A stretch of 64,000 bases of DNA. It comes from Anagrus nilaparvatae. Lineage: Eukaryota > Arthropoda > Insecta > Hymenoptera > Mymaridae. Below the pieces are notes generated by a model. That model made no database searches and was not told where the DNA came from. It worked only from the letters and a program-made list of their open reading frames with translations. Positions 4,603 to 62,100 of this stretch are shown here, piece after piece. A program made the translations under genes and the position numbers. The DNA lies in contig JAKSXM010000007.1 in the NCBI GenBank assembly GCA_022575985.1, forward strand, positions 14,634,501 through 14,698,500, in the 5' to 3' direction. The number at the start of each line of letters is the position of its first letter. The stretch's first letter is position 1.

Positions 4603-4805
4603 ATTACTACCCGTCAGAGGATGTCACTGATGGACCAAAATTCAAATGTTCGTGTGGAAAATTTTATAAATGGAAAGAATCACTTAATTCACATAAAAGG
4701 ATGGAATGCGGCGTGGCGCCTCGTTTTTCTTGTGATTATTGTGGAAAAAAATTTAAATATAAACATCATTTAGTAAAGCATAAAAGTAGCGTCCACGCTA
4801 AATAA
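4603..4805 (+). CDS. lola: lola alternative 3' exon, zinc-finger pair (1)
   Basis: Terminal exon of a BTB-zinc-finger transcription factor. In lola, shared 5' exons encode a BTB/POZ dimerisation domain and are joined to one of many 3' exons like this one, which supplies nuclear DNA binding. The acceptor is TTTTTAG at 4602; bases 4603-4604 complete a split codon (Asp if the donor exon ends in G). The 67 residues open D-Y-Y-P-S-E-D. Finger 1 is F-K-C-S-C-G-K-F-Y ... L-N-S-H-K-R-M-E-C-G, finger 2 is F-S-C-D-Y-C-G-K-K-F ... L-V-K-H-K-S-S-V-H, followed by A-K and the stop. In finger 1 the first two cysteines are one residue apart instead of two, so its zinc knuckle is shortened. A polyadenylation signal AATAAA lies at 4830-4835. 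The internal ATG at 4572 is in the intron and is not a start. Confidence 0.9.
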
Positions 4806-12949: not shown

Positions 12950-13101
12950 AAAGAGGAGTTTACAAAAAATATTCTACAAATGATGTTGTAAAAGCTTTAG
13001 ATGCAATAAAAAAAGGATTATCTATTCGACAAGCATCTAGGGTATTTAAAATTCCAAAGGCATCTTTACATGCAAAATATATGGGCACCTCGCCCCTATA
13101 A
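12950..13101 (+). CDS. Candidate terminal exon: psq-type HTH captured from transposase
   Basis: GTTTTGCAG ends at 12949 and the next two bases complete a phase-1 codon, which is Lys after exon b' (ends in A). The frame reads K-R-G-V-Y-K-K-Y-S-T-N-D-V-V, then A-L-D-A-I-K-K-G-L-S-I-R-Q-A-S-R, V-F-K-I-P-K-A-S-L, and stops at 13099-13101. This is a complete psq/pogo-type helix-turn-helix, the DNA-binding part of pogo transposases and of the Pipsqueak family. No methionine lies upstream in frame inside the element, so translation would depend on splicing from host exons. If used, the isoform would be BTB plus psq domain, with no zinc fingers. The splice use is inferred; the frame and domain are seen. 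Confidence 0.5.
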
Positions 13102-14109
13102 ACATCACCTGGGCCAAGAAAAACAAATAGTTAAGTGGGTTGAAACTCTTGCTAAAAAGGGGTTTTATGTGACAAAAGATAATTTTTTGGATTCAATAAA
13201 ACTCACTGTTGATTTAAAAAAAAAAAAAATCTTTTTTTCAACGGAAGACCTTCTAATTTCTGGTACACCGTTTTCAAAAGCAGAAACCCTTCACTTTCTC
13301 AAATACTTAGACAAGATTTTGATAAGGAAAGGCACATTGTCTCTGAACAAGATTTACGCGAATGGTTTATCAGGAAAAAAAATAATTTACATGATTTAAA
13401 ACTTTTGAATATTTCTGCTGAAAGAGTTTTTAGTTTAAGTGAATGTGGGTTTTTGTTAGAATCTTCTGGAAATAAATTTCTGTTACATAAAAATGATAAA
13501 AACGCCTTCAATTTACGCAACAGAAACAAAGAATGTTATGCGTCATTTTTAGGAAATGCCGCTGGCCAGTTAGCTCCTACTTTAGTTATTTATGATCCAA
13601 AAATAATAAAACCAAAGTTAACTAAAAATTTTCCAAATGAATTAGCAATTGGTAAAGGTCCTAATGGATGGATGACATGTGAAACGTTTTACAAGTATAT
13701 TACAGATACTTTTTATCCATGGTGTATCAAAAACCACATTGAATTTCCTATTGTTTTATTTATTGATAGTTCCAATACACACTTGTCTCTAGAATTATGT
13801 AATTTTTGTGATAAAAACAAGATAGAATTGGTTCCTTTGCCTTGTAATACAGCACACGTATTGCAACCTATAGATGTTGGAGTTTTCAAACCACTAGAAT
13901 TGTCTTATGAAAAATTAGTAGATGAATGGAAAATTCAAAACAATCTTTCACCTTTAACTAAAAATGATTTTGCTCATGTTTTGAAAAAGGCAATAGAAAT
14001 TACAAATATTAAACTAATTTTAAAAAACAGCTTTGAAAGATGTGGACTCTACCCAGTGAATGAAAATTCATTTGATTATAGTAAATTCAAACTATTTGAC
14101 AGGGAATAA
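12950..14109 (+). pseudogene. pogo/Tigger transposase, two compensating frameshifts
   Basis: Three blocks make a near-complete transposase. 12950-13060: psq-type helix-turn-helix. About 13094-13215: Y-K-H-H-L-G-Q-E-K-Q-I-V-K-W-V-E, a second (Tc5/CENP-B-like) DNA-binding helix set, in the +1 frame. 13228-14109: back in the first frame, starting N-G-R-P-S-N-F-W and running through the DDE nuclease. The return to frame lies in a run of 14 A, so one shift may be slippage or a base-call error. In the nuclease, H-V-L-Q-P-I-D-V-G-V-F and F-I-D-S-S-N-T-H-L-S keep the second and third catalytic Asp. The first is Ser in F-S-L-S-E-C-G-F, where the family has D-E. The last block is open for 293 codons, so decay is recent or the block is under constraint. 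Cutting activity is unlikely. Confidence 0.85.
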
Positions 14110-25753: not shown

Positions 25754-27651
25754 TATTACATTAATTATGTGTTGCAAAAAAGTTTATTTTTGCCAAATGC
25801 GAAGATTAACGGTCCTAAGGTGATAAAACCCCAAGGGACAGTTATCGCATTTGATACAATATACTTTTTTATGCAAAATTTTGTAAGATATTTTACACAC
25901 AAAGGGTAGAAAAATTTTCCCGTCCAGGTCAGAAAATAGTATTTTTCTGATATATCTAGTTATATATTATACGTTTTAGCTGTTTGTTGAATATTTAATG
26001 AATTTGATGAGTTTATTATAAAATAATAATACGATCTACTTGGGACAATTGAGTCCGGTCCTTCCCCACTACTAAAGTAAATTGATGCTGTGAAACGGCG
26101 ACTTTTATAACTTTAGGTCTGACTTGAATTGAAAATAAGTCAAAATTTTACATAAAATATAATAATTACCATTAAAAACTATTTTATAATTAAAATAACC
26201 ACAAACGACTGTTTAAAGTATCTATTTAAACAATCATTTTAATAATTCAATTTTTTAAAACGGAGAATAGATTAATGTTTCAATTTTCAAGCCGGACTTA
26301 AAGTTATAAAAATCGCTGTATTACAACGCCAATTTTTTTTAAAGCAGGGAAGGGCCGGAATCTGTATAAGTATAATTTTTTCATTATTATTATCTTCGTC
26401 TCACAGAATAATTGAAAAAAAAATTTCTAAAAAAAAAAATTTTCTAAAATTTAAGTCTGTTATTAAAAATTAATAATAATGAAAAAATTGTACATATATT
26501 GTACAATTTAGATCGTGTTTATTATTTTATAATAAACTTAACAAATTAATTTAATTCATTAAAAAATGAACCAGTATTTACATTTTTTTTCTCATCAATA
26601 TATTAATTGTTGAATGAGTGAGAAAATATAGGATATCGCGAGTTTGAACCTTCTTGAATTCTTCCAGCATTTAACATATTATAGTTTTCCCTAAAAGCAA
26701 AAACTTGATCAAGTTTTCGATCAAGTTTTCGATCCTAGATCAAGATAGAAAATAAATTTTGGTTTAAGTATTTATAATTAAAAATATTATCATGAATAAT
26801 TTATTTAAAATAAAAAATAGTTATAAGTAAAAATTGTTTTGATTTTTTATGTAAAATATAAAAATAAACTTTATATTTATAAAAGTACAATTATTATTTT
26901 AGTTTTTTCACAATGAGAATCAGTAGCATCATCTAATTATCTTATTATTTTTAGTTCTAATTATCATTAATAATGAAAAAAATTAACAAAAAGAACCCAT
27001 TGCATTATTTATGGTGCTATGGAACCTTATTAAAAAAGTACATCTGATCTTTATATTAACAATGTGTTAAACTTACATAAAATTACTCGTTTTTTAAGCT
27101 GCCTGACACTAGGTATGAGACTAATTATTTTTTATTTAATAATTTGGTAGCGTTTTTTTATAACTTTTTAAAATTTTTTATTACATTTGCAACAATCTAA
27201 AAGGAAAAAAGAGAATTCTCTTAAAATCACCATAATTAGTTGCTTTCCTTGAAAATTAATGTTAAATTTGACAACTTTCATTTATGTACATATCCATTAT
27301 CCATACTTTAGATTGTATAATATTAATGTAATTAATAAAAATTGTAAATAAAATATTCCAAGTAAATACTTATATTAAAAAAAAAATAAAAAACGTTATA
27401 TCTCATGTGACTTTATTTTTATTTTTTAATTGTTTCTTTTCTAATTATTTTCAGCAAATTAAGACTATCAAAACGAAGTAAAAAAGTAAAGGTTAAATTC
27501 TCATATGACTAAAAATCTGTTCGTCATTTAACAATTGCATGATTGTCAAATCTTGTTTAAAAATTTCATAAAAATATTCGATTTTTTGAGATATTAAATA
27601 AATTTCAATACGTTTTATTTGACAAAAAACTAATTTATTTATATTTTTCAG
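25754..27651. other. Inter-cassette intron with fold-back element
   Basis: Holds the element at 26005-26555 and a small inverted pair (CCAAATGCGA / TCGCATTTG) at 25794-25850. An AG at 27453 is followed by an immediate stop. No gene is seen. Confidence 0.5.
26005..26555. repeat. Long fold-back element
   Basis: The outer arms read TTTATTATAAAATAATAATACGATC on the left (about 26012) and GATCGTGTTTATTATTTTATAATAAA on the right (about 26511). Inner arms pair GAGTCCGGTCCTTCCC with GGGAAGGGCCGGAATC, and TTATAACTTTAGGTCTGACTTGA with TCAAGCCGGACTTAAAGTTATAA. It is typical of a non-autonomous DNA element built of nested inverted repeats. Confidence 0.7.
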
Positions 27652-28031
27652 ATTGGAATTCATTTCAAGCTTTAGAAATGGCTGATCCATTAGACATTGG
27701 GCCTAATTTTGAAAACAAAAATTATTCAAAAGAAAAAAAGTCTTATAGAAGGCCTATGAGACGTGATAAAAAAAAAGTTAATTCATCTGGAATCAAAAAA
27801 CTTTATCCGTGTCCAAATTGCCCAAGCGCTTACAATAGACAGGATAATTTAACTCAACATTTAAAATACGCTTGCCTTAGAAAACCAAGATTTGCCTGTC
27901 CATATTGTACTCGCGTTGGAAAACGAACTTTTAATATTTATATGCATATCAGAAAGCAACATCCCAATCGTTTAATTTGTTATAGAGACTTAGAAAAATC
28001 TAACGATTTAGTAACTCCAAATTTAAAATAA
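27652..28031 (+). CDS. lola: lola alternative 3' exon, zinc-finger pair (12)
   Basis: Acceptor TATATTTTTCAG ends at 27651; AT makes Asp, then W-N-S-F-Q-A-L-E-M-A-D-P-L-D-I. Of 126 residues, the first 55 include a strongly basic block (K-K-S-Y-R-R-P-M-R-R-D-K-K-K-V). Finger 1 is Y-P-C-P-N-C-P-S-A-Y-N-R-Q-D-N-L-T-Q-H, closing K-Y-A-C-L-R-K-P; finger 2 is F-A-C-P-Y-C-T-R-V-G-K-R-T-F-N-I-Y-M-H, closing R-K-Q-H-P. In finger 1 the usual E-C-G is A-C-L. AATAAA lies at 28119-28124, 88 bases after the stop. Confidence 0.92.
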
Positions 28032-28258: not shown

Positions 28259-28539
28259 ATTATTCAAGAAACACGGACGTAATTAAATAATATTAAAAAT
28301 TATATTTGCGTTGATTGCAATGAATCCCTATGCAATTCTTGAAAAATTATTATGAATATTTAAAATATGAATGTAAAAAAGAACCTCGTCATCAATGCTC
28401 ATATTGTGGAAAATTCGCAGAATGCCATACTGATTTTCGAAAACATATTAGGAATATTCATCTATACGATGAAGTATTTTGTATTAATACAATTAAAAAC
28501 AGTATATCAAGTATCAAGGGCGCAAAAGTTCAGTGGTAG
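28259..28539 (+). pseudogene. lola: Decayed lola exon, paralogue of 51721 and 52742
   Basis: Acceptor ATTTTTTCAG ends at 28258; phase 1 gives D-Y-S-R-N-T-D-V-I-K and a stop. A shifted frame reads N-Y-I-C-V-D-C-N-E-S-L-C-N-S and stops. A third, 28351-28539, reads Y-L-K-Y-E-C-K-K-E-P-R-H-Q-C-S-Y-C-G-K-F, then D-F-R-K-H-I-R-N-I-H and V-F-C-I-N-T-I-K. These match, in order, N-Y-I-C-V-E-C, Y-E-C-G-K-x-P, Q-C-P-Y-C, H-I-R-L-V-H and F-C-T-N-I-I-T of the two live exons 23 kb downstream. At least two frameshifts and a stop disable it. Its 3' end runs into the small palindromic insert at 28508-28620. Confidence 0.8.
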
Positions 28540-29307: not shown

Positions 29308-29543
29308 GATTATTACGGCCGAATGGGTTATCATCATCAATGGAATCATTATCAAGTTATGATGCATCATTACATTCTCCTGGGACACCACAACATAGTC
29401 AAAGAATGAGAAGAATGAGAACAAGTTTTAAGCATGATCAAGTGCGTACAATGAAAAGCTATTTCGCTATTATTCAAAATCCAGATGCTAATGGTTTAGA
29501 GCAGTTATCTCAAAAAACTGGATTGTCAAAAAGAGTTATACAG
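29308..29543 (+). CDS. ap: Apterous/Lhx2-9-type homeodomain, exon 1 of 2
   Basis: Acceptor TTTCTAATTTTAG ends at 29307 and the frame is phase 1, the same phase as all the finger exons. It reads G-L-L-R-P-N-G-L-S-S-S-M-E-S-L, then a Ser/Pro-rich lead and R-M-R-R-M-R-T-S-F-K-H-D-Q-V-R-T, M-K-S-Y-F-A-I, N-P-D-A-N, L-S-Q-K-T-G-L-S-K-R-V-I-Q, ending at donor CAGGTATG in phase 0. These are helices 1 and 2 and the start of helix 3 of the homeodomain class in Drosophila apterous and vertebrate Lhx2/Lhx9, LIM-homeodomain factors of wing and neuron identity. The intron site before V-W-F-Q is a known homeobox intron position. No LIM zinc-binding exon is recognisable upstream in the window. The ATG at 29340 could be an internal start. 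Confidence 0.85.
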
Positions 29544-30317
29544 GTATGTTATACACGGTGTAAATTAATGATAGGCAAACCTTATATGTACTTAAAGAAA
29601 ACAAAAATTCTCAATACCATCTTTTGTTTGGCCCATTCAATTTTAAATGGGAGGTAGTTAAAAGGCAGCCAATCAGGGCGAAGGTTATATAAATTTCATG
29701 TTTTTTAATTTCGATTACTTTTGACTGTTTTCTGTAACGTGTAATTCTAATAAAATTTGTGGCTCGGATAATATATTTGAAAAAAATAACGGTATATTAA
29801 GGATGTTAACTACCTTTTTTGTTTGAGAACAAATTTGGTATATAACAAGAAGTAATATTAAAAAATATATATTTAAAATTTGAAGACCCTAGGATGTCTC
29901 CATTATTATTAAATAATTAAGAATAATTTCGCTTTTTCAAGTATCTTATAAACGTGATTCTTATGGGATGACGTTTTATAATAGAAAATTTTATTATTTT
30001 TTGAGTAGTTTTTGATAAAAAAATTAATAACATATAAAAAAAGTATCCTAGAATATAGTTATAAAATTTATTTTCGACTAAGGTAATTTATTTATAACGA
30101 AAATGTTATTTATTTAACAATTCTATCGTATATTCGTGCGCGCGCAGGGCCTTCGCTTCTATAGTAATATGATAGAAAGAGAAAGAGTCGGCTGCTTATA
30201 TCAAGTACCCCACATTCGTAACTAGCTTCCTTAAGTCTGAATTTACTAACATGGAACATGTTTATAGGAAGGGGGTACCTCAGAATTTGAAAGTTTAAGG
30301 GGTGGGGGGTCAAATAA

Positions 30318-30450
30318 GACTTAGAATAATTTCAATTTAGGGACTTAGAATAATTCAGGTTTAGGGATTTGAAATAATTTTGATTTAGGGACCTAGAATA
30401 ATACACGTTTAGGGAATCAAAATAGTTTGGATTTAGAATCTTAACATCTA
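30318..30450 (+). repeat. Minisatellite of ~30-bp units
   Basis: Four to five units of the type TTTAGGGACTTAGAATAATT, diverging stepwise (AGGGATTTGAAATAATTTTG, AGGGACCTAGAATAATACAC), inside the homeodomain intron. Confidence 0.75.
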
Positions 30451-30623
30451 GTAAGGTGATGATTACAAATTATAAAATTAGAAAATTGTATTGTAACATT
30501 GCGTAACATTTGCATTATACCTAGTCCTCAGCTGGAAGTAAATATGTTCCATGTATTTAGGTTGTATTTACACATCTCTATTATAAATTTTTTGTATTGA
30601 AGCTCATTTTATTTTTCTCGTAG

Positions 30624-30860
30624 GTATGGTTTCAAAATGCAAGAGCAAAATGGCGTAAGAATATCATGCGCCAAGAAGCTGATAGCAGTGTGAGTGGTAA
30701 TATTGGTTTTTCAGGTTTACCAAAACTGGCATCACCTGGTACCGGAAGTAGTTCACCAAATATAAAATTTGGTACTGCTTTTCCTAGTAACCGTAATGAC
30801 ACGCCTTCAATTTCAATTAAGAAAATGCAGAAACGTCCTACTGTCATTAACCTCGATTAA
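30624..30860 (+). CDS. ap: Apterous/Lhx2-9-type homeodomain, exon 2 of 2
   Basis: Acceptor TTTTTCTCGTAG ends at 30623; phase 0 continues the first homeobox exon. It begins V-W-F-Q-N-A-R-A-K-W-R-K-N-I, the recognition helix with Gln at homeodomain position 50 and Asn at 51, giving TAATTR-type site preference in this family. The following 60 residues are Ser/Gly/Pro-rich (S-V-S-G-N-I-G-F-S-G, P-G-T-G-S-S-S-P-N) and end R-P-T-V-I-N-L-D. Apterous proteins also end in a short N-L-D-like tail, which supports orthology. The intron is 1080 bases. The exon pair lies between dead or live lola cassettes on the same strand, so it is either the 3' end of an interleaved LIM-homeobox gene or a homeodomain tail in the lola array. 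Confidence 0.85.
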   Translation, partial: VWFQNARAKWRKNIMRQEADSSVSGNIGFSGLPKLASPGTGSSSPNIKFGTAFPSNRNDTPSISIKKMQKRPTVINLD

Positions 30861-33389: not shown

Positions 33390-35920
33390 GACTGGGTCCA
33401 AGTTAAACTGAAGGTTCGTAGAAATTGACCAAAAATATTTTTTTCTGAACGTACTAAAAATAAGTACTCTCGGACAATTTTATAGATAAAACAAATACAA
33501 ATATTTGTTATGTTCCAAATGTTTTAGATTTATTATTAAAAATTATTATTATAAACAATAATAATGATCATTCTCAGCCAATTTTAGCTTTCTAGGTAAA
33601 ATCCTTTATTTTTGGCAGCCATTTTTGTGTTATTGGGAAATTCCAGGTGTAACAAACGGAATTCCAATTACGACAAACAATTTTTTTTTTAGATTTACAA
33701 TTTAGCTATAATAAAAAACATATATTAATAGGTGGATACTCGTTTATTATATTATAGGTAAAAAGCAACTGCTAATTAAGCCTATTCTGTGAACCTCAAT
33801 AATTCTGAAAAAAATTAATCAAATTTGAAGTAAAAAGTCTTAATTAAAGAACATATGTCATTAAGATGTTAAGAAGTAAACATTTCTTATTTTCCAACAA
33901 TATAGTACATAAATGGTATTTCACTCATATACATTTAGCGATAATTTGGTGCTTTGAGTGTAATACATTTTTCTGAGCTATAAAATTTGTTACTACAAAA
34001 TGGCCCATGTTATAAATTGAAAATGGCAACAGGCATTAAAAAAAAATCGGAAAGCCAAATATTTCTTCAAAAATTATAGTAATTGTTGGAATATTTTTTA
34101 TCAAGCACCCAAAAGGATGTTTTTGCCTAATTAGAGGTTATTTTACAAATTTTTAGGTTTCTCGATTTTAATTTTTAAAAAAAACGTGGAAAAAAAGTTC
34201 ATCACTCTATATAATTATTTTAATGGAGAAGTTACTCCACAATCAATATTGTGACTTTTATGGAGACAAAAGACTCTACAACTCTCGTTTTTAAAAAAGT
34301 CATTTTTTCGATGAACTATTTGAGTCAAAATATTGATTTTGAAGGATCCTAGTCCAGTATCCTAGTGAAGTATCCTAACTAAAATGTATACATGTTTCCC
34401 AAGTTGATATATTTCATATATGTAGACTTTGGATCTTTGATGTCCCGACTATAATGCTCGACTTTTAAGTGAATAAGAAAAATAATGTCCATTTTGATAA
34501 GCTTTAATTTAAGACTCGAATTACTGATATAGTTGATATTTTTTTTGTAATTAAATGAATTTTCAATATAATGTTTTACAATTGTAGAGCTACCCCAGTC
34601 ACCTAATTTGTGTACTTCTTCTGCGGTGCAACAAGTGTTAGCCGTGGCAGATGCAGAAGATCTACGTAAAGCGTGTCCAGTATACAATTCTGCATTTTCT
34701 AGTTTTAAGTACATTGCTATTTTGAAACTGGTGCAATTTTGTGTATCCCTGCAGATGAGTTGATGGATTTTCCATTTCTATATCCAAGAAATAAGCTATT
34801 TATTTTTGTAACTTTTGGTCTAAAAGCCATATACTGTTTTAAAATTTCATAAAATGAGTCAGTTAAAAAAAATTGTTTCATTCTTCTTGTTTTTGTAATA
34901 AAGACGTCTGCTCTTTTTTTTCTTTTAAATCGTTTATTTGAATTTTATGAATATCACTTCTTCTTAGGCAACCTTTAAGTCCCATGACTAATACGGTTTT
35001 ATGTAATAAATACTTATCATTTGGTGCAGTTTTTAAAAATTCTTCGCAATGTTCTTCTTCAAGAATTTTTGAGGTTTTTGGTTCATACCCTTTTTGATTT
35101 TATCTTCGTCTTAGAAATAATGATAATCCACCGAAATTCTTAAAATTTTTACACTTCTCCCACTTATATTTTTAAAATTATATTTAGACATCAATAATCA
35201 AGATAATTCTTATGGGAGATTTATTTTACTCCCTAGTCCCTCTTAAATTATTTCACCTCAACATTTATAATTCTTTGTTTTTTATTTCGCTGTCTTTCGC
35301 AATTTGTTTTCTTTCTTTTTTCATTACTGTTTACTAACTATTGCCTTTTGAAGTAAGTCAAAAAAGTTTAAAAAAAAAACGTACTTTTTGACCGTACGCC
35401 TGCCTTTTATTAATAGAGTTATAAAAAAAAATTTTACAGACTTAATGATGTTTTAGGTCTTAATTTTCATTTGACGTAAAAAAAATCTGTTTGTCGTAAC
35501 CGTAATTTTTTTTGCCTTACTGGAAATTCCTTTAGGAAACCGGAAATTTTTTTCATTGTAGAAGAAAATTGAGCCTGCACATTTTTTTTATTTAACCTGA
35601 AAGGCGCAGTGAAAAACGAAATTTCTTGCGCATGTGTAGTCCAAATCAAATTTTGAATATCGGAATCGAATATTCAGGAAATTTCGTATAAACACATGCA
35701 AGGAAAATATATTTCACCTAAGTATTTGGCAGCAAAAAATATGAATATTTTGCGTCAATTAACCGCAGTAAGCCAATAACAAAAAAAATGGCTGCCAAAA
35801 ATCAAGAATTTGACCTAGAAAACTTAAATTGGCTGTGAATACTTATTTTTAGTTGTTTTTTCGGAAAAAATAGTTACTTCCGCTTTCTACGATTCTTCGG
35901 TCCAACTTGGGCCCTGTTGG
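33390..35920 (-). mobile_element. Crypton-like element bounded by inverted ends
   Basis: The left side has GGGTCCAAGTT (33391), CAGCCAATTTTAG...CTAGGTAAAATCC (about 33587) and TTTTTGGCAGCCATTTTTGTG (about 33614). The right side has the reverse complements: ATGGCTGCCAAAAATC (about 35789), GACCTAGAAAACTTAAATTGGCTG (about 35813) and AACTTGGGCCC (about 35904). A tyrosine-recombinase relic lies between them on the minus strand. Classical Cryptons lack terminal inverted repeats, so the ends may belong to a different element that carries or flanks the relic. Confidence 0.55.
34540..35110 (-). pseudogene. Crypton-type tyrosine recombinase, degraded
   Basis: On the minus strand from about 35100 the frame reads I-L-E-E-E-H-C-E-E-F-L, Y-L-L-H-K-T-V-L-V-M-G-L-K-G and C-L-R-R-S-D-I-H-K-I, then a break near 34880. 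After another break near 34715 it reads T-G-H-A-L-R-R-S-S-A-S-A-T-A, E-E-V-H-K-L-G-D-W-G-S-S and V-K-H-Y-I-E-N-S. These are the catalytic first Arg (R-R-S-D), the H-x-x-R box and the nucleophile Tyr (H-Y-I-E) of tyrosine recombinases, in the style of animal Cryptons and related host genes. At least two breaks disable it. Confidence 0.75.
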
Positions 35921-36365: not shown

Positions 36366-36893
36366 TTAAGAGAATTTAGTACTGAAAATTTACAGACTCC
36401 GAAAATAAAAAAGTAACAAATACATATTCTAATTTACTTTTGATATACAAATGGAGGTATCCATGACTTAATATTTCGAATGAAGAAAAAAACAAGGAAA
36501 GAAACTGAAATATGTTGGTATTCAAGAAATGATCAAAATATAAATTTAAAACACACATCTACTGTAGTTAGATATATAATGCTATAATAAAACGAATATT
36601 AAATGATTATCAAAAAATTTAATTTGGATTGAATTATTATTTTTACTTATATTTTAAGCAAAAAAAATTTTTTTGGGCTTTATTCTTAATTCTTATTTGA
36701 CTCAGAAAACATTTACTTATTACTGAAATCTTTGAATCTATATGTTTGCACTATTTTAAATTCCTCTTTCAAAATTTTCGGCTTTTTATTTAATTTTGTT
36801 AAAATATTAGCTAAATGAAAAAATTTATCCAATAAAATATATTCTATTTTTTTCTTAACATCTTGCAATTAACACTTTTTAATTTTGTTTCAG

Positions 36894-37621
36894 AAATCAT
36901 TCTTTTTAGAAAGTTAGAGTACAATGAAGATGATACAGAAATTGATGTTGAGCATTCAGACCATGAAGATCATAACCAAATACCATCTGAAATAAAAACA
37001 GAAAATCATGAAATAGTTGATAAAACTTCTAAAAATAAAATATTTATTTCTAATGAAATTTTTGATACAAGTAAAGATGTAGGCATAAATTTAAGTGAAA
37101 CCTCTGGAGATAAAACAAAAGGTTATCTAAAAGTACGGCAGTTTTTAACTGAATTAAGTAATAAAAACCTGGAAGTAATAAAAGATAAACCTAAAACTTT
37201 TGAGTGTAAAGGTTGCCATGAAAAATTCTCAAATGAAAATTATCTCGATGAGCATTATCAAGAAAATTTCAAATTACATGAATATCATTGTATTTATTGT
37301 GACTTTGAAGTTAAAAGTCCAGAGATAGAAAAAATAATATCACATGTTGACATTGCTCATAAAAATGTAACATATTATTGTTTGGCATATGCCAAACATT
37401 GTTATGAAAAATCAGGAATCAAACCTAAAAATGATGATAAATTTTATTGCCACAAATGTCCTGAATTTTTTATAAGCCAACAAAAATTAGACGGACATTT
37501 AAGTACTCATTGTTGCAGAAAATATGTTTGTTTATATTGTCATGAATCATTTAAATTAATAGATATTAAAAACCATGTAAATAGAGTTCATTGTAATGAA
37601 AAATTATTATATCAAACTTAA
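36894..37621 (+). CDS. lola: Long acidic multi-finger exon (13), paralogue of 19044
   Basis: Acceptor AATTTTGTTTCAG ends at 36893; AA makes Glu, then I-I-L-F-R-K-L-E-Y-N-E-D-D-T-E-I-D. It has 242 residues with the same plan as the exon at 19044: an acidic lead, then F-E-C-K-G-C-H-E-K-F, H-Y-Q-E-N-F, Y-H-C-I-Y-C-D-F, A-H-K-N-V-T-Y-Y-C-L-A-Y-A-K-H-C, F-Y-C-H-K-C-P-E-F-F, H-L-S-T-H-C and Y-V-C-L-Y-C-H-E-S-F, closing H-V-N-R-V-H. The Lys-rich block of the 19044 exon is missing, and the E-C-G of the third finger is H-C-C. The shared plan points to duplication of one ancestral long cassette across the homeobox region. I see no private start exon for this copy. Confidence 0.88.
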
Positions 37622-43590: not shown

Positions 43591-43876
43591 GAACTTTTGG
43601 ATAGTTTGGAACAAGGAAATTCTACTCTTTTTCCAGAAATAATTGTGGTAAAGAGAAAGCCAGGTCCAATCCCTAAGAACCGATTTCTATCAATGGGGAT
43701 GAAGAGTGCTTTTACTCAAAAAGTAAGACAAAAACCAGGTCCGAAGCCTAAAAATCGGTTGGTCCAATCTGGAAACATAGAAAATAATACACTTATTAGT
43801 GAGATAAAAACTGAAACTATTTATTTAGAAGAAGCTAGTTGTTCAAATTCAAAAACTACACAACCACAGACAGCAG
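43100..43876 (+). CDS. lola: Acidic/AT-hook-like internal exon (15a)
   Basis: Acceptor TATACATTTTAG ends at 43099; TT makes Val, then N-E-I-E-D-E-E-S-I-E-I-D-V-S. It encodes 258 whole codons and leaves in phase 1 at donor AGGTAAAA (43877). Residues 60-80 carry E-K-R-K-P-G-R-P-F-K. Further copies of a P-G-P motif follow (V-K-R-K-P-G-P-I-P-K-N-R, V-R-Q-K-P-G-P-K-P-K-N-R), which resemble degenerate AT-hooks. It is the duplicate of the exon at 40756, but it lacks the terminal fingers and instead splices to the finger exon 66 bases downstream. Read-through of the donor would stop after G-K-I-R-N-K. Confidence 0.85.
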
Positions 43877-43942: not shown

Positions 43943-44400
43943 ATTATACTTCAATAAATCCGTCAAATACAGATCAAACATATGATGAATTAGATACCAT
44001 TAGCCAAGATAATCCTGATATTGATGATTTTACTCATGTTTCTAAATCAAAAAGATTTGCTCTATATGACTTCAGGTGCAACTGCTGCGTAGAATACATG
44101 ACAAATTCTTTGGAAGACATGCTAACCCATATGACTGAACTTCATCCAAGTGAAAAATTATACTGCCATGCATCAGTCAAATGGTTTGCCAAAAAACGAT
44201 ATGGCAAGTCTTCTATTTCAAAACCATTTAAGTGTCCTGATTGTCCAAGCAGTTTTTCAAGCGTCATGAATTTTCGGACGCATAAGAGATATTGTTGTAA
44301 GAAATTTGTTTGTATTTTATGCCAATACACTAATATAGATCACGTGTATGTTTTGAATCATATTAAAGACAAACATAAACAACATTTTAAAAATAAATAA
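43943..44400 (+). CDS. lola: Terminal multi-finger exon (15b)
   Basis: Acceptor TATTTATTTTAG ends at 43942; AT completes the split codon left by the exon at 43100 (G-AT, Asp), then Y-T-S-I-N-P-S-N-T-D. It has 152 residues: a mildly acidic lead, then F-R-C-N-C-C-V-E-Y-M ... H-M-T-E-L-H, L-Y-C-H-A-S-V-K-W-F, F-K-C-P-D-C-P-S-S-F ... T-H-K-R-Y-C-C and F-V-C-I-L-C-Q-Y ... H-I-K-D-K-H. The order (finger, Y-C-x-x-x-x-K-W/Y block, C-P-x-C-P finger, V-C-x-x-C finger) equals the last part of the exons at 19044 and 36894. The 66-base intron is among the shortest here. A phase-1 acceptor means it could also be joined directly to the constant exons. Confidence 0.87.
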
Positions 44401-60241: not shown

Positions 60242-62100
60242 TTACTGGTACATTTTAAAATTAAATAAATAAAAAAATAATGAGAATTTATGAAAATGAT
60301 TTTCTCTGTGCAATATTTGAATATTATCATAATCATAAGCAAAGTCGTGTTCCCTATTGTGATCTAAGATATGTTTGTTAATAACGTTATGATAGGTGGG
60401 AGATAACTTAATGTTCTTTTTATTTTCACCAGCTCTTATTTTTTTTATAAACGTTTTGTTTGGTCTGCATAAATTTGAGGGCAATTTTTACAATTAATTT
60501 TGTAGATTAAATTTTTGTTGCTACATCTTTTGAGAGGATCTTTGCCAATTTTTATGATCTTATTTAATTTGAAAGGCTTACAGAAAAAAGTTTTCATATT
60601 ACATTTATTTCTTAAGGTGTGTTGCAATGTTTTAGAGATTCTCGGAATTAATGGTAAAACAATACTGTGTAGTTATTTGTGTCCAAGTTTGTATTATTGT
60701 TTTGATCAACATCAGAAGTAGCATTAAGGTTTTCAAGAAAGTTTTTAAAATGGTGGTCTATAAATTTGTTTGGGTACCCATTAAAAATTAGATCTTTTTT
60801 AAATATTTTGAAGTTTATGTCATGAAATTTTTAGGATAAAAATAGAAAATTTTTAAATATCCCAGTTTTAGTGGAGAAGGAGTGATTAGAAGAATAATTC
60901 AAATAACGTCCAGAAAAAGTAGGTTTTTGTAGATGTCTGTAGAAAGGGTACGATCATTGTTTTTAATAACTAGAATGTCAAGAAAATTTAGTTCATCATT
61001 TTTCTCCAACTCGTAGGTGAATTTTATATTAGAATGATAACTCGTAAATAATTTTAGGACCTCAAATTATTTCTTTATTTAATATCATAAAAGAATCATC
61101 TACGTATCGAGAATAAGAGAGAATATTCTAGTTAAAAGTTTCTAATACTTTTTGTTCAAGGTCTTGGATGACAAGATCAGCTAAAATTGGGGATAAACTT
61201 AATCCCTTTGGCATTAAGTAGTTTGACGGTAGAATTAGTTTGACGGTACAATTTGTTGTAAGTATAGAGAATTGTAGTAATTAAAGTAATTAATTTATAG
61301 CAATTCATTAGTACCTCTAAACCTTTAATGAATTCTTTTTCAGATAATTTAGTAAAATTTTTAATTTTAGAAAAATGTTTTTTTATGTTATCTTTTACTA
61401 GTTTAAAAGTAATATTTATTAAACATATTTGTAATGTCGAAGGAAGCCAAAACAAAATTATTCGGGATGTGCATGTCTTGAATTTTAGATAAAATTCAGT
61501 GCGGTTTTCTATTACTTGAGTTGGTCTAGGACAAGCAGAGACTAAAATTTCTTTGTAGATGTTTGAGATTAAAAAAAGCGGCGAATTAATACAAGAAGTA
61601 ATTACTCTTAATGGAAAACCGCCTTTGTGTATTTTATATAGACCATAGGCTCTGGGTAGGTTGGTGTCTTCCGTTAAAATATTTTTTCTTTCTATTTCAG
61701 GATTTAGAAAATTGTTTACTCTCCATCGGTCAAGGAGTCTAATAACATTATTTTTAACTGTATCTGAAGGATCAGAATCTATAAAGGAATATTTGTTTTT
61801 ATCCTAAAAGATATTTTTCATACTGTATATATAATTTATCAAAAGTTTTTGAATTAATTATTTTTTTAAGGTTATTTTCTAGAATAGATTTTTGTTTATT
61901 TAAAAAGTCGATGTGTATGTGTATGTCTTTAATTTTAAAATTCAAAACAGTACTATGTATTTTATTAATGTAATTATTGGCTTTAGATTTAATGAATTTA
62001 CTATGGAAATGTAATTTTTGGAAGTTTTTTGTAATAAGAAATAACTTATTATTTTTCAATTTATTTCTGGTGAATCTTTAGCCCTTAAATAAAAATTAAA
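60242..62100 (-). pseudogene. Penelope-like retroelement (reverse transcriptase plus GIY-YIG), degraded
   Basis: Read on the minus strand the order is reverse transcriptase then endonuclease, as in Penelope-like elements. Around 61215-61140: L-S-L-S-P-I-L-A-D-L-V-I-Q-D-L-E, the thumb-side motif of this family. At 61106-61095: the active-site Y-V-D-D in R-Y-V-D-D-S-F-M-I. At 60627-60445: L-I-Y-K-I-N-C-K-N-C-P-Q-I-Y, then D-Q-T-K-R-L, the GIY-YIG endonuclease core with G replaced (usual Y-I-G-Q-T is Y-A-D-Q-T). At 60400-60300: E-H-D-F-A-Y-D-Y-D-N-I-Q-I, the downstream part. Stops and frameshifts separate all blocks. Upstream conserved helices lie at 61455-61300 (F-T-K-L-S-E-K-E-F-I). Confidence 0.8.

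Follow-up and report, generated by a model that had tools for sequence, protein, structure and literature searches.

The window analysed here is a 64,000-nucleotide stretch of Anagrus nilaparvatae DNA, of which positions 4603–54278 of the plus strand hold a portion of a lola tail array. Embedded in this array are two plus-strand exons encoding a homeodomain (HD) tail. Exon 1 (29308–29543; window position 29308 corresponds to C62:14663808) carries an apterous B (apB)-like leader, LLRPNGLSSSMESLSSYDASLHSPGTPQHSQR, followed by the homeodomain as far as Q46, and is bounded by a phase-1 acceptor (TTTTAG/GA) and the donor CAG/GTATGT. Exon 2 (30624–30860) begins at a phase-0 acceptor (CGTAG/GTATGG) and encodes the recognition helix (VWFQNARAKW...), a C-terminus and a TAA stop, so that the tail has its own stop codon. 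The two exons translate as GLLRPNGLSSSMESLSSYDASLHSPGTPQHSQRMRRMRTSFKHDQVRTMKSYFAIIQNPDANGLEQLSQKTGLSKRVIQ and VWFQNARAKWRKNIMRQEADSSVSGNIGFSGLPKLASPGTGSSSPNIKFGTAFPSNRNDTPSISIKKMQKRPTVINLD-stop, respectively, the first G of GLLRPNGLSSSMESLSSYDASLHSPGTPQHSQRMRRMRTSFKHDQVRTMKSYFAIIQNPDANGLEQLSQKTGLSKRVIQ being the codon split across the predicted lola junction. The initial annotation had recognized an apterous-type homeodomain and C-terminus in two exons, and this description stands: the frame is open, the homeodomain is complete (Pfam Homeodomain, E 3.5e-20, profile positions 1–57 of 57), and the best solved structural relative is the LHX9 homeodomain (E 7.2e-29). A candidate polyadenylation signal, AATAAA, lies about 50 nt past the stop, a motif contained in 62% of random 300-nt stretches of this AT-rich DNA.

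The intron between the two exons (29544–30623) measures 1080 bp, compared to 60–61 bp in the three other tail copies described below. A stretch within it (about 30240–30595) recurs at C62:14567506, C62:14574584 and C290:84538–84970; it is an interspersed repeat that probably stretched the intron from about 60 bp. Elsewhere in the window are two overlapping plus-strand open reading frames (ORFs) at 13010–14109 that we take to resemble a DDE-type transposase, and two minus-strand ORFs, at 34379–34777 and 61177–61803, which presumably resemble part of a tyrosine recombinase and a Penelope-like reverse transcriptase, respectively.

The HD exons are flanked by zinc-finger cassettes on the same strand. 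Upstream lie a lola-type finger tail (27652–28031) and a half cassette (28295–28539) that lacks its first finger and looks decayed; the counterpart of the latter at C62:14569757–14569965 reads complete, indicating that tails do decay in the lola array. Downstream are a long multi-finger tail (36894–37621) and a further finger tail (43943–44400). In a 264-kb interval made up of the window and the 200 kb upstream of it, 103 of 103 hit clusters are on the plus strand, four of them being exons of two HD copies. Among the best acceptors scoring at least 6 in this interval (n=91), 84 are in phase 1, 6 in phase 0 and 1 in phase 2; HD exon 1 thus shares the phase of most flanking cassettes, as had been noted initially, and HD exon 2 is one of the six phase-0 acceptors. 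This count retains a row in which HD copy A was scored at 14570832, which is not the orthologous site (its true acceptor, at exon start 14570874, went unscored because the hit begins only with the split codon), and two clusters, 14604786 and 14605032, that are one exon with one acceptor in common. Finger cassettes extend from C62:14403231 upstream to 14946941 downstream, about 544 kb in all, with the stretches 14698501–14936000 and 14175401–14402500 lying outside the reading of the array. The array is very large: these 264 kb alone hold about 100 finger cassettes, with others further out, compared to about 20 isoforms in the fly. It also contains internal block duplications.

The exons encoding the common part of lola lie on the same strand as the HD tail, 489 kb upstream. 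The two BTB exons (C62:14172553–14172732 and 14173405–14173596) share 85% and 84% identity with Drosophila lola, and matches to the fly protein at C62:14.17 Mb continue past the BTB domain (54% identity over residues 60–198; residues 378–414, E 4e-4). The top-scoring single match to fly lola falls in a different BTB gene, at C62:46497838 (71% over 118 residues), which we take to be lola-like/batman. The last of the four common coding exons ends at 14174785 with ...QAQRDSQ plus one G, giving a phase-1 donor at common exon 4. In Drosophila melanogaster, all seven isoforms compared diverge past residue 454, and the next residue is GNN-coded in each (V, D, D, E, D, D, G), which indicates the same phase-1 G donor. 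When the common exons are joined in silico to 29308 and the HD exons, the frame stays open and yields a predicted protein of 521 aa with a Pfam BTB domain (E 4.5e-27) and a Homeodomain (E 1.2e-19).

The HD tail is present in three further copies: copy A at C62:14570873, copy C at C62:14944518 and copy D at C290:89853. The block of the window, consisting of the finger tail at 27624, the half cassette at 28295, the HD exons, the long finger tail at 36835 and the finger tail at 43713, recurs in unchanged order at C62:14557741–14577624, where the upstream finger tail has its duplicate at 14557741–14558144 and the last finger tail at 14576930–14577624. The HD exons and the long finger tail recur together at C62:14944077–14946990 and at C290:89412–92560. 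C290 is 96–99% identical in nucleotides to C62 around this third HD locus, and a second marker is common to both contigs in the same order, 58 kb closer on C290. The C290 copy is probably a haplotig of the third locus, and we therefore count three HD loci; it may instead be a recent duplication. Misassembly is disfavoured by the three loci with matching neighbours and by the separately assembled contig C290. Copies C and D (C62:14944519–14944862 and C290:89854–90197) have lysine in place of the two glutamines that apB carries at homeodomain positions 46 and 50 (Q46K and Q50K), with W48 and N51 anchoring the numbering.

The HD exons lie downstream of the BTB and common exons on the same strand, their acceptor is in phase with the common donor (a match that is partly informative, since apB shares the phase), and they are embedded in the array and evolve with it; where a lola tail usually, though not universally, has zinc fingers, they have a homeodomain. 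The same exons could belong to a separate LIM-less HD gene that has a promoter and a small first exon of its own and is nested in the array without being spliced to lola. Genes can sit nested within large introns, exon 1 contains an in-frame ATG (SSS-M-ESL), and Bombyx mori Apterous B beta (P0004), a 159-aa homeobox product without LIM domains, offers a precedent. On the other hand, the ten codons upstream of this ATG are open and similar among copies, with four of the five differences between the window and copy A falling at third positions (counted by eye). The acceptor is likewise conserved among the copies, together with its phase; it can be joined in frame to the lola donor; and the HD exons have been duplicated together with lola tails. 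We consider such a nested gene unlikely.

An unstable array might also carry the HD exons as non-functional pseudoexons, in the way that the neighbouring cassette at 28295–28539 has decayed. The C-terminus is weakly constrained (window versus copy A, dN/dS 0.44), and in copies C and D, in which a stop follows three residues after RKN, directly past the homeodomain, it is lost. Copy C is in addition less constrained when compared to apB (12.0 synonymous and 19.0 nonsynonymous changes, p 2.6e-3). Against this, the open homeodomain frame and the splice sites are kept in all four copies (window, A, C and D), and the HD codons of the window, A and C are under purifying selection. Specifically, in pairwise tests over 60 codons, in which pairs have branches in common, 15.0 of 34.2 synonymous versus 6.0 of 145.8 nonsynonymous sites changed between the window and A (p 1.8e-8), and 10.5 of 33.0 versus 8.5 of 147.0 between the window and C (p 1.5e-4), with p 3.0e-8 for A versus C; the corresponding dN/dS ratios are 0.087, 0.166 and 0.106. 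Furthermore, a close relative exists on an ENA contig, from possibly the same and possibly another species (P0031, 87% identity over 45% of the query), and stands out by this identity among the best 120 of the 431 relatives found in a protein search. Pseudoexons are thus very improbable. Together with the upstream same-strand common exons, the in-frame junction and the co-duplication, purifying selection on the homeodomain supports one of the two readings initially proposed, that of a homeodomain tail of lola.

The source of the homeodomain can be traced. Of the best 120 relatives, the sequences of 13 were examined; the top two, P0001 and P0002, carry an apterous-B leader of the LLHPNELSSSMESL type upstream of the homeodomain, a leader also present in named apB proteins of wasps. 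A tree of 34 rows groups the four tail-type sequences in a single clade (100/99), which joins the apB of the same genome together with P0001 (100/90); two of the four tail rows, copy C and P0031, carry long-branch flags. The apB of this genome is placed among named Hymenoptera, in a part of the tree whose deeper forks are weak. The tail resembles Apterous B and Lhx2/Lhx9 in the homeodomain, the leader and the start of the C-terminus, as well as in the phase-1 acceptor, which this genome's own apB has at the equivalent position. It differs in having no LIM domains, in lying in the lola array, in tail-specific homeodomain changes and in a C-terminus that ends differently (no SFSDLY). These comparisons support a derivation of the HD tail from apB, comprising the leader, homeodomain and C-terminus of its last coding part, without LIM domains.

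This origin also changes the meaning of the phase match, to which, taken alone, the initial annotation had given a one-in-three chance of being accidental. The HD exon of the genome's own apB (L002) has its phase-1 acceptor at the position homologous to 29308, so the match with lola is expected of a captured apB exon; because the phase is inherited from apB, the argument from chance is dropped as evidence. The phase-1 start of apB made capture by lola possible and is alone no proof of use by lola. An intron between Q and V within the homeodomain is present in apA and in the lola tails and absent from the genome's own apB (L002 versus L007), which implies either that the donor differed from the apB of today or that the tails gained the intron. 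We tentatively favour loss of this intron by apB after the capture.

Matches to a whole Microctonus apB protein cover the entire query at C95:32476631–32486495, with LIM exons at 32476631 and 32479103 and the homeodomain at 32486001; the same query matches LIM1, LIM2 and the homeodomain of apA at C95:32383049–32425265. Other apterous paralogues thus exist, each with LIM and HD exons. At about 14.4–15.0 Mb of C62 the query matched the homeodomain only. The initial statement that no LIM domain is visible in the window is borne out and extends to the 200 kb upstream: these 264 kb yield no match to LIM below an E of 0.1, nor any to a LIM pattern in six frames, the best hit (E 0.20, chance level) falling on a finger cassette. 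Of the features of a LIM-homeobox gene, therefore, the apterous-type homeodomain is present and the two LIM domains encoded upstream were not found in this interval. The other reading first proposed, which takes the HD exons for the 3'-terminal part of an ordinary LIM-homeobox gene with LIM exons interleaved with lola, has the clearly apB-type homeodomain and leader in its favour and is rejected, with almost no likelihood left to it, as the LIM and HD exons of apA and apB all lie on C95 and the closest LIM match on C62 is at 15450372, on the minus strand (E 3.3e-5).

The architecture of lola itself is known. In common with Drosophila lola, the locus has a BTB common region, a phase-1 G donor and alternative 3' tails; it differs in its homeodomain tail and in an array several times larger. 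In the fly, C2H2 fingers are present in 17 of 20 lola isoforms (PMC11426971) and three isoforms are without fingers (PMC1947980). Bombyx Apterous B beta is likewise an HD product without LIM domains according to precomputed Pfam; unlike the tail described here, it is classed by name as an apterous B form, and nothing ties it to lola. No BTB-HD protein of lola length was found among the best 120 of 474 matches, and a second search, with 4090 matches (5473 candidates), likewise gave none in its best 120. Titles and the beginnings of abstracts on lola and on BTB-homeodomain proteins mention no lola homeodomain isoform, in agreement with the initial annotation; within these sources, a homeodomain as a class of lola tail is nowhere described.

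Taken together, we are confident, though short of certain, that the last coding part of apB, without the LIM domains, became a tail cassette in the lola array, was duplicated with its finger neighbours to three loci and serves lola as one of its alternative 3' ends. Its placement as a cassette and later duplication to three loci are supported by the sequence comparisons and the tree; that the HD exons are spliced to the lola BTB exons we infer from the gene models. Counting against this reading, the match in phase is partly uninformative, apB being already in phase 1, an intron of 489 kb in cis is long, and the present apB is without the Q/V intron of the tails. The weak constraint on the C-terminus with the early stops of copies C and D, the relaxed constraint on copy C relative to apB and the two long-branched tail rows weigh on the same side.

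Under the capture model, the common donor of lola (...QAQRDSQ-G) would be joined to the acceptor at 29308, either by cis-splicing across about 489 kb or by trans-splicing, as in Drosophila lola, whose front end is joined to tails in both ways (PMC1947980). Removal of the internal HD intron would then give the 521-aa protein, consisting of a TTK-type BTB domain, the lola linker and the homeodomain. TTK-type BTB domains, including that of LOLA, form hexamers and pair with many partners (PMC11426971). The homeodomain would direct such a Lola BTB multimer to apterous/Lhx-type sites with a TAAT core, where the BTB-HD protein is predicted to act as a competitor or corepressor at apterous targets. 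Chip/LDB is a binding partner of LIM domains, and for a product without them the LIM-cofactor route is not expected. A homeodomain with K50 is a Bicoid-type reader, and the Q50K copy would accordingly go to different, Bicoid-like sites.

More broadly, we lean towards a view of lola as having become a platform able to recruit DNA-binding domains from other genes, with the capture of the apterous-B homeodomain giving at least three BTB-HD isoforms, both Q50 (apterous-like) and K50 (Bicoid-like) readers, and a class of BTB-HD transcription factors. The locus would then offer a concrete example of a splicing array taking up a different kind of DNA-binding domain from a gene unrelated to it, one in which the donor can be traced, the junction is in phase and diversification followed. 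It predicts a LIM-independent protein working at apterous sites. If true, a new transcription-factor architecture combining BTB and homeodomain can arise by exon capture, leaving existing isoforms untouched.
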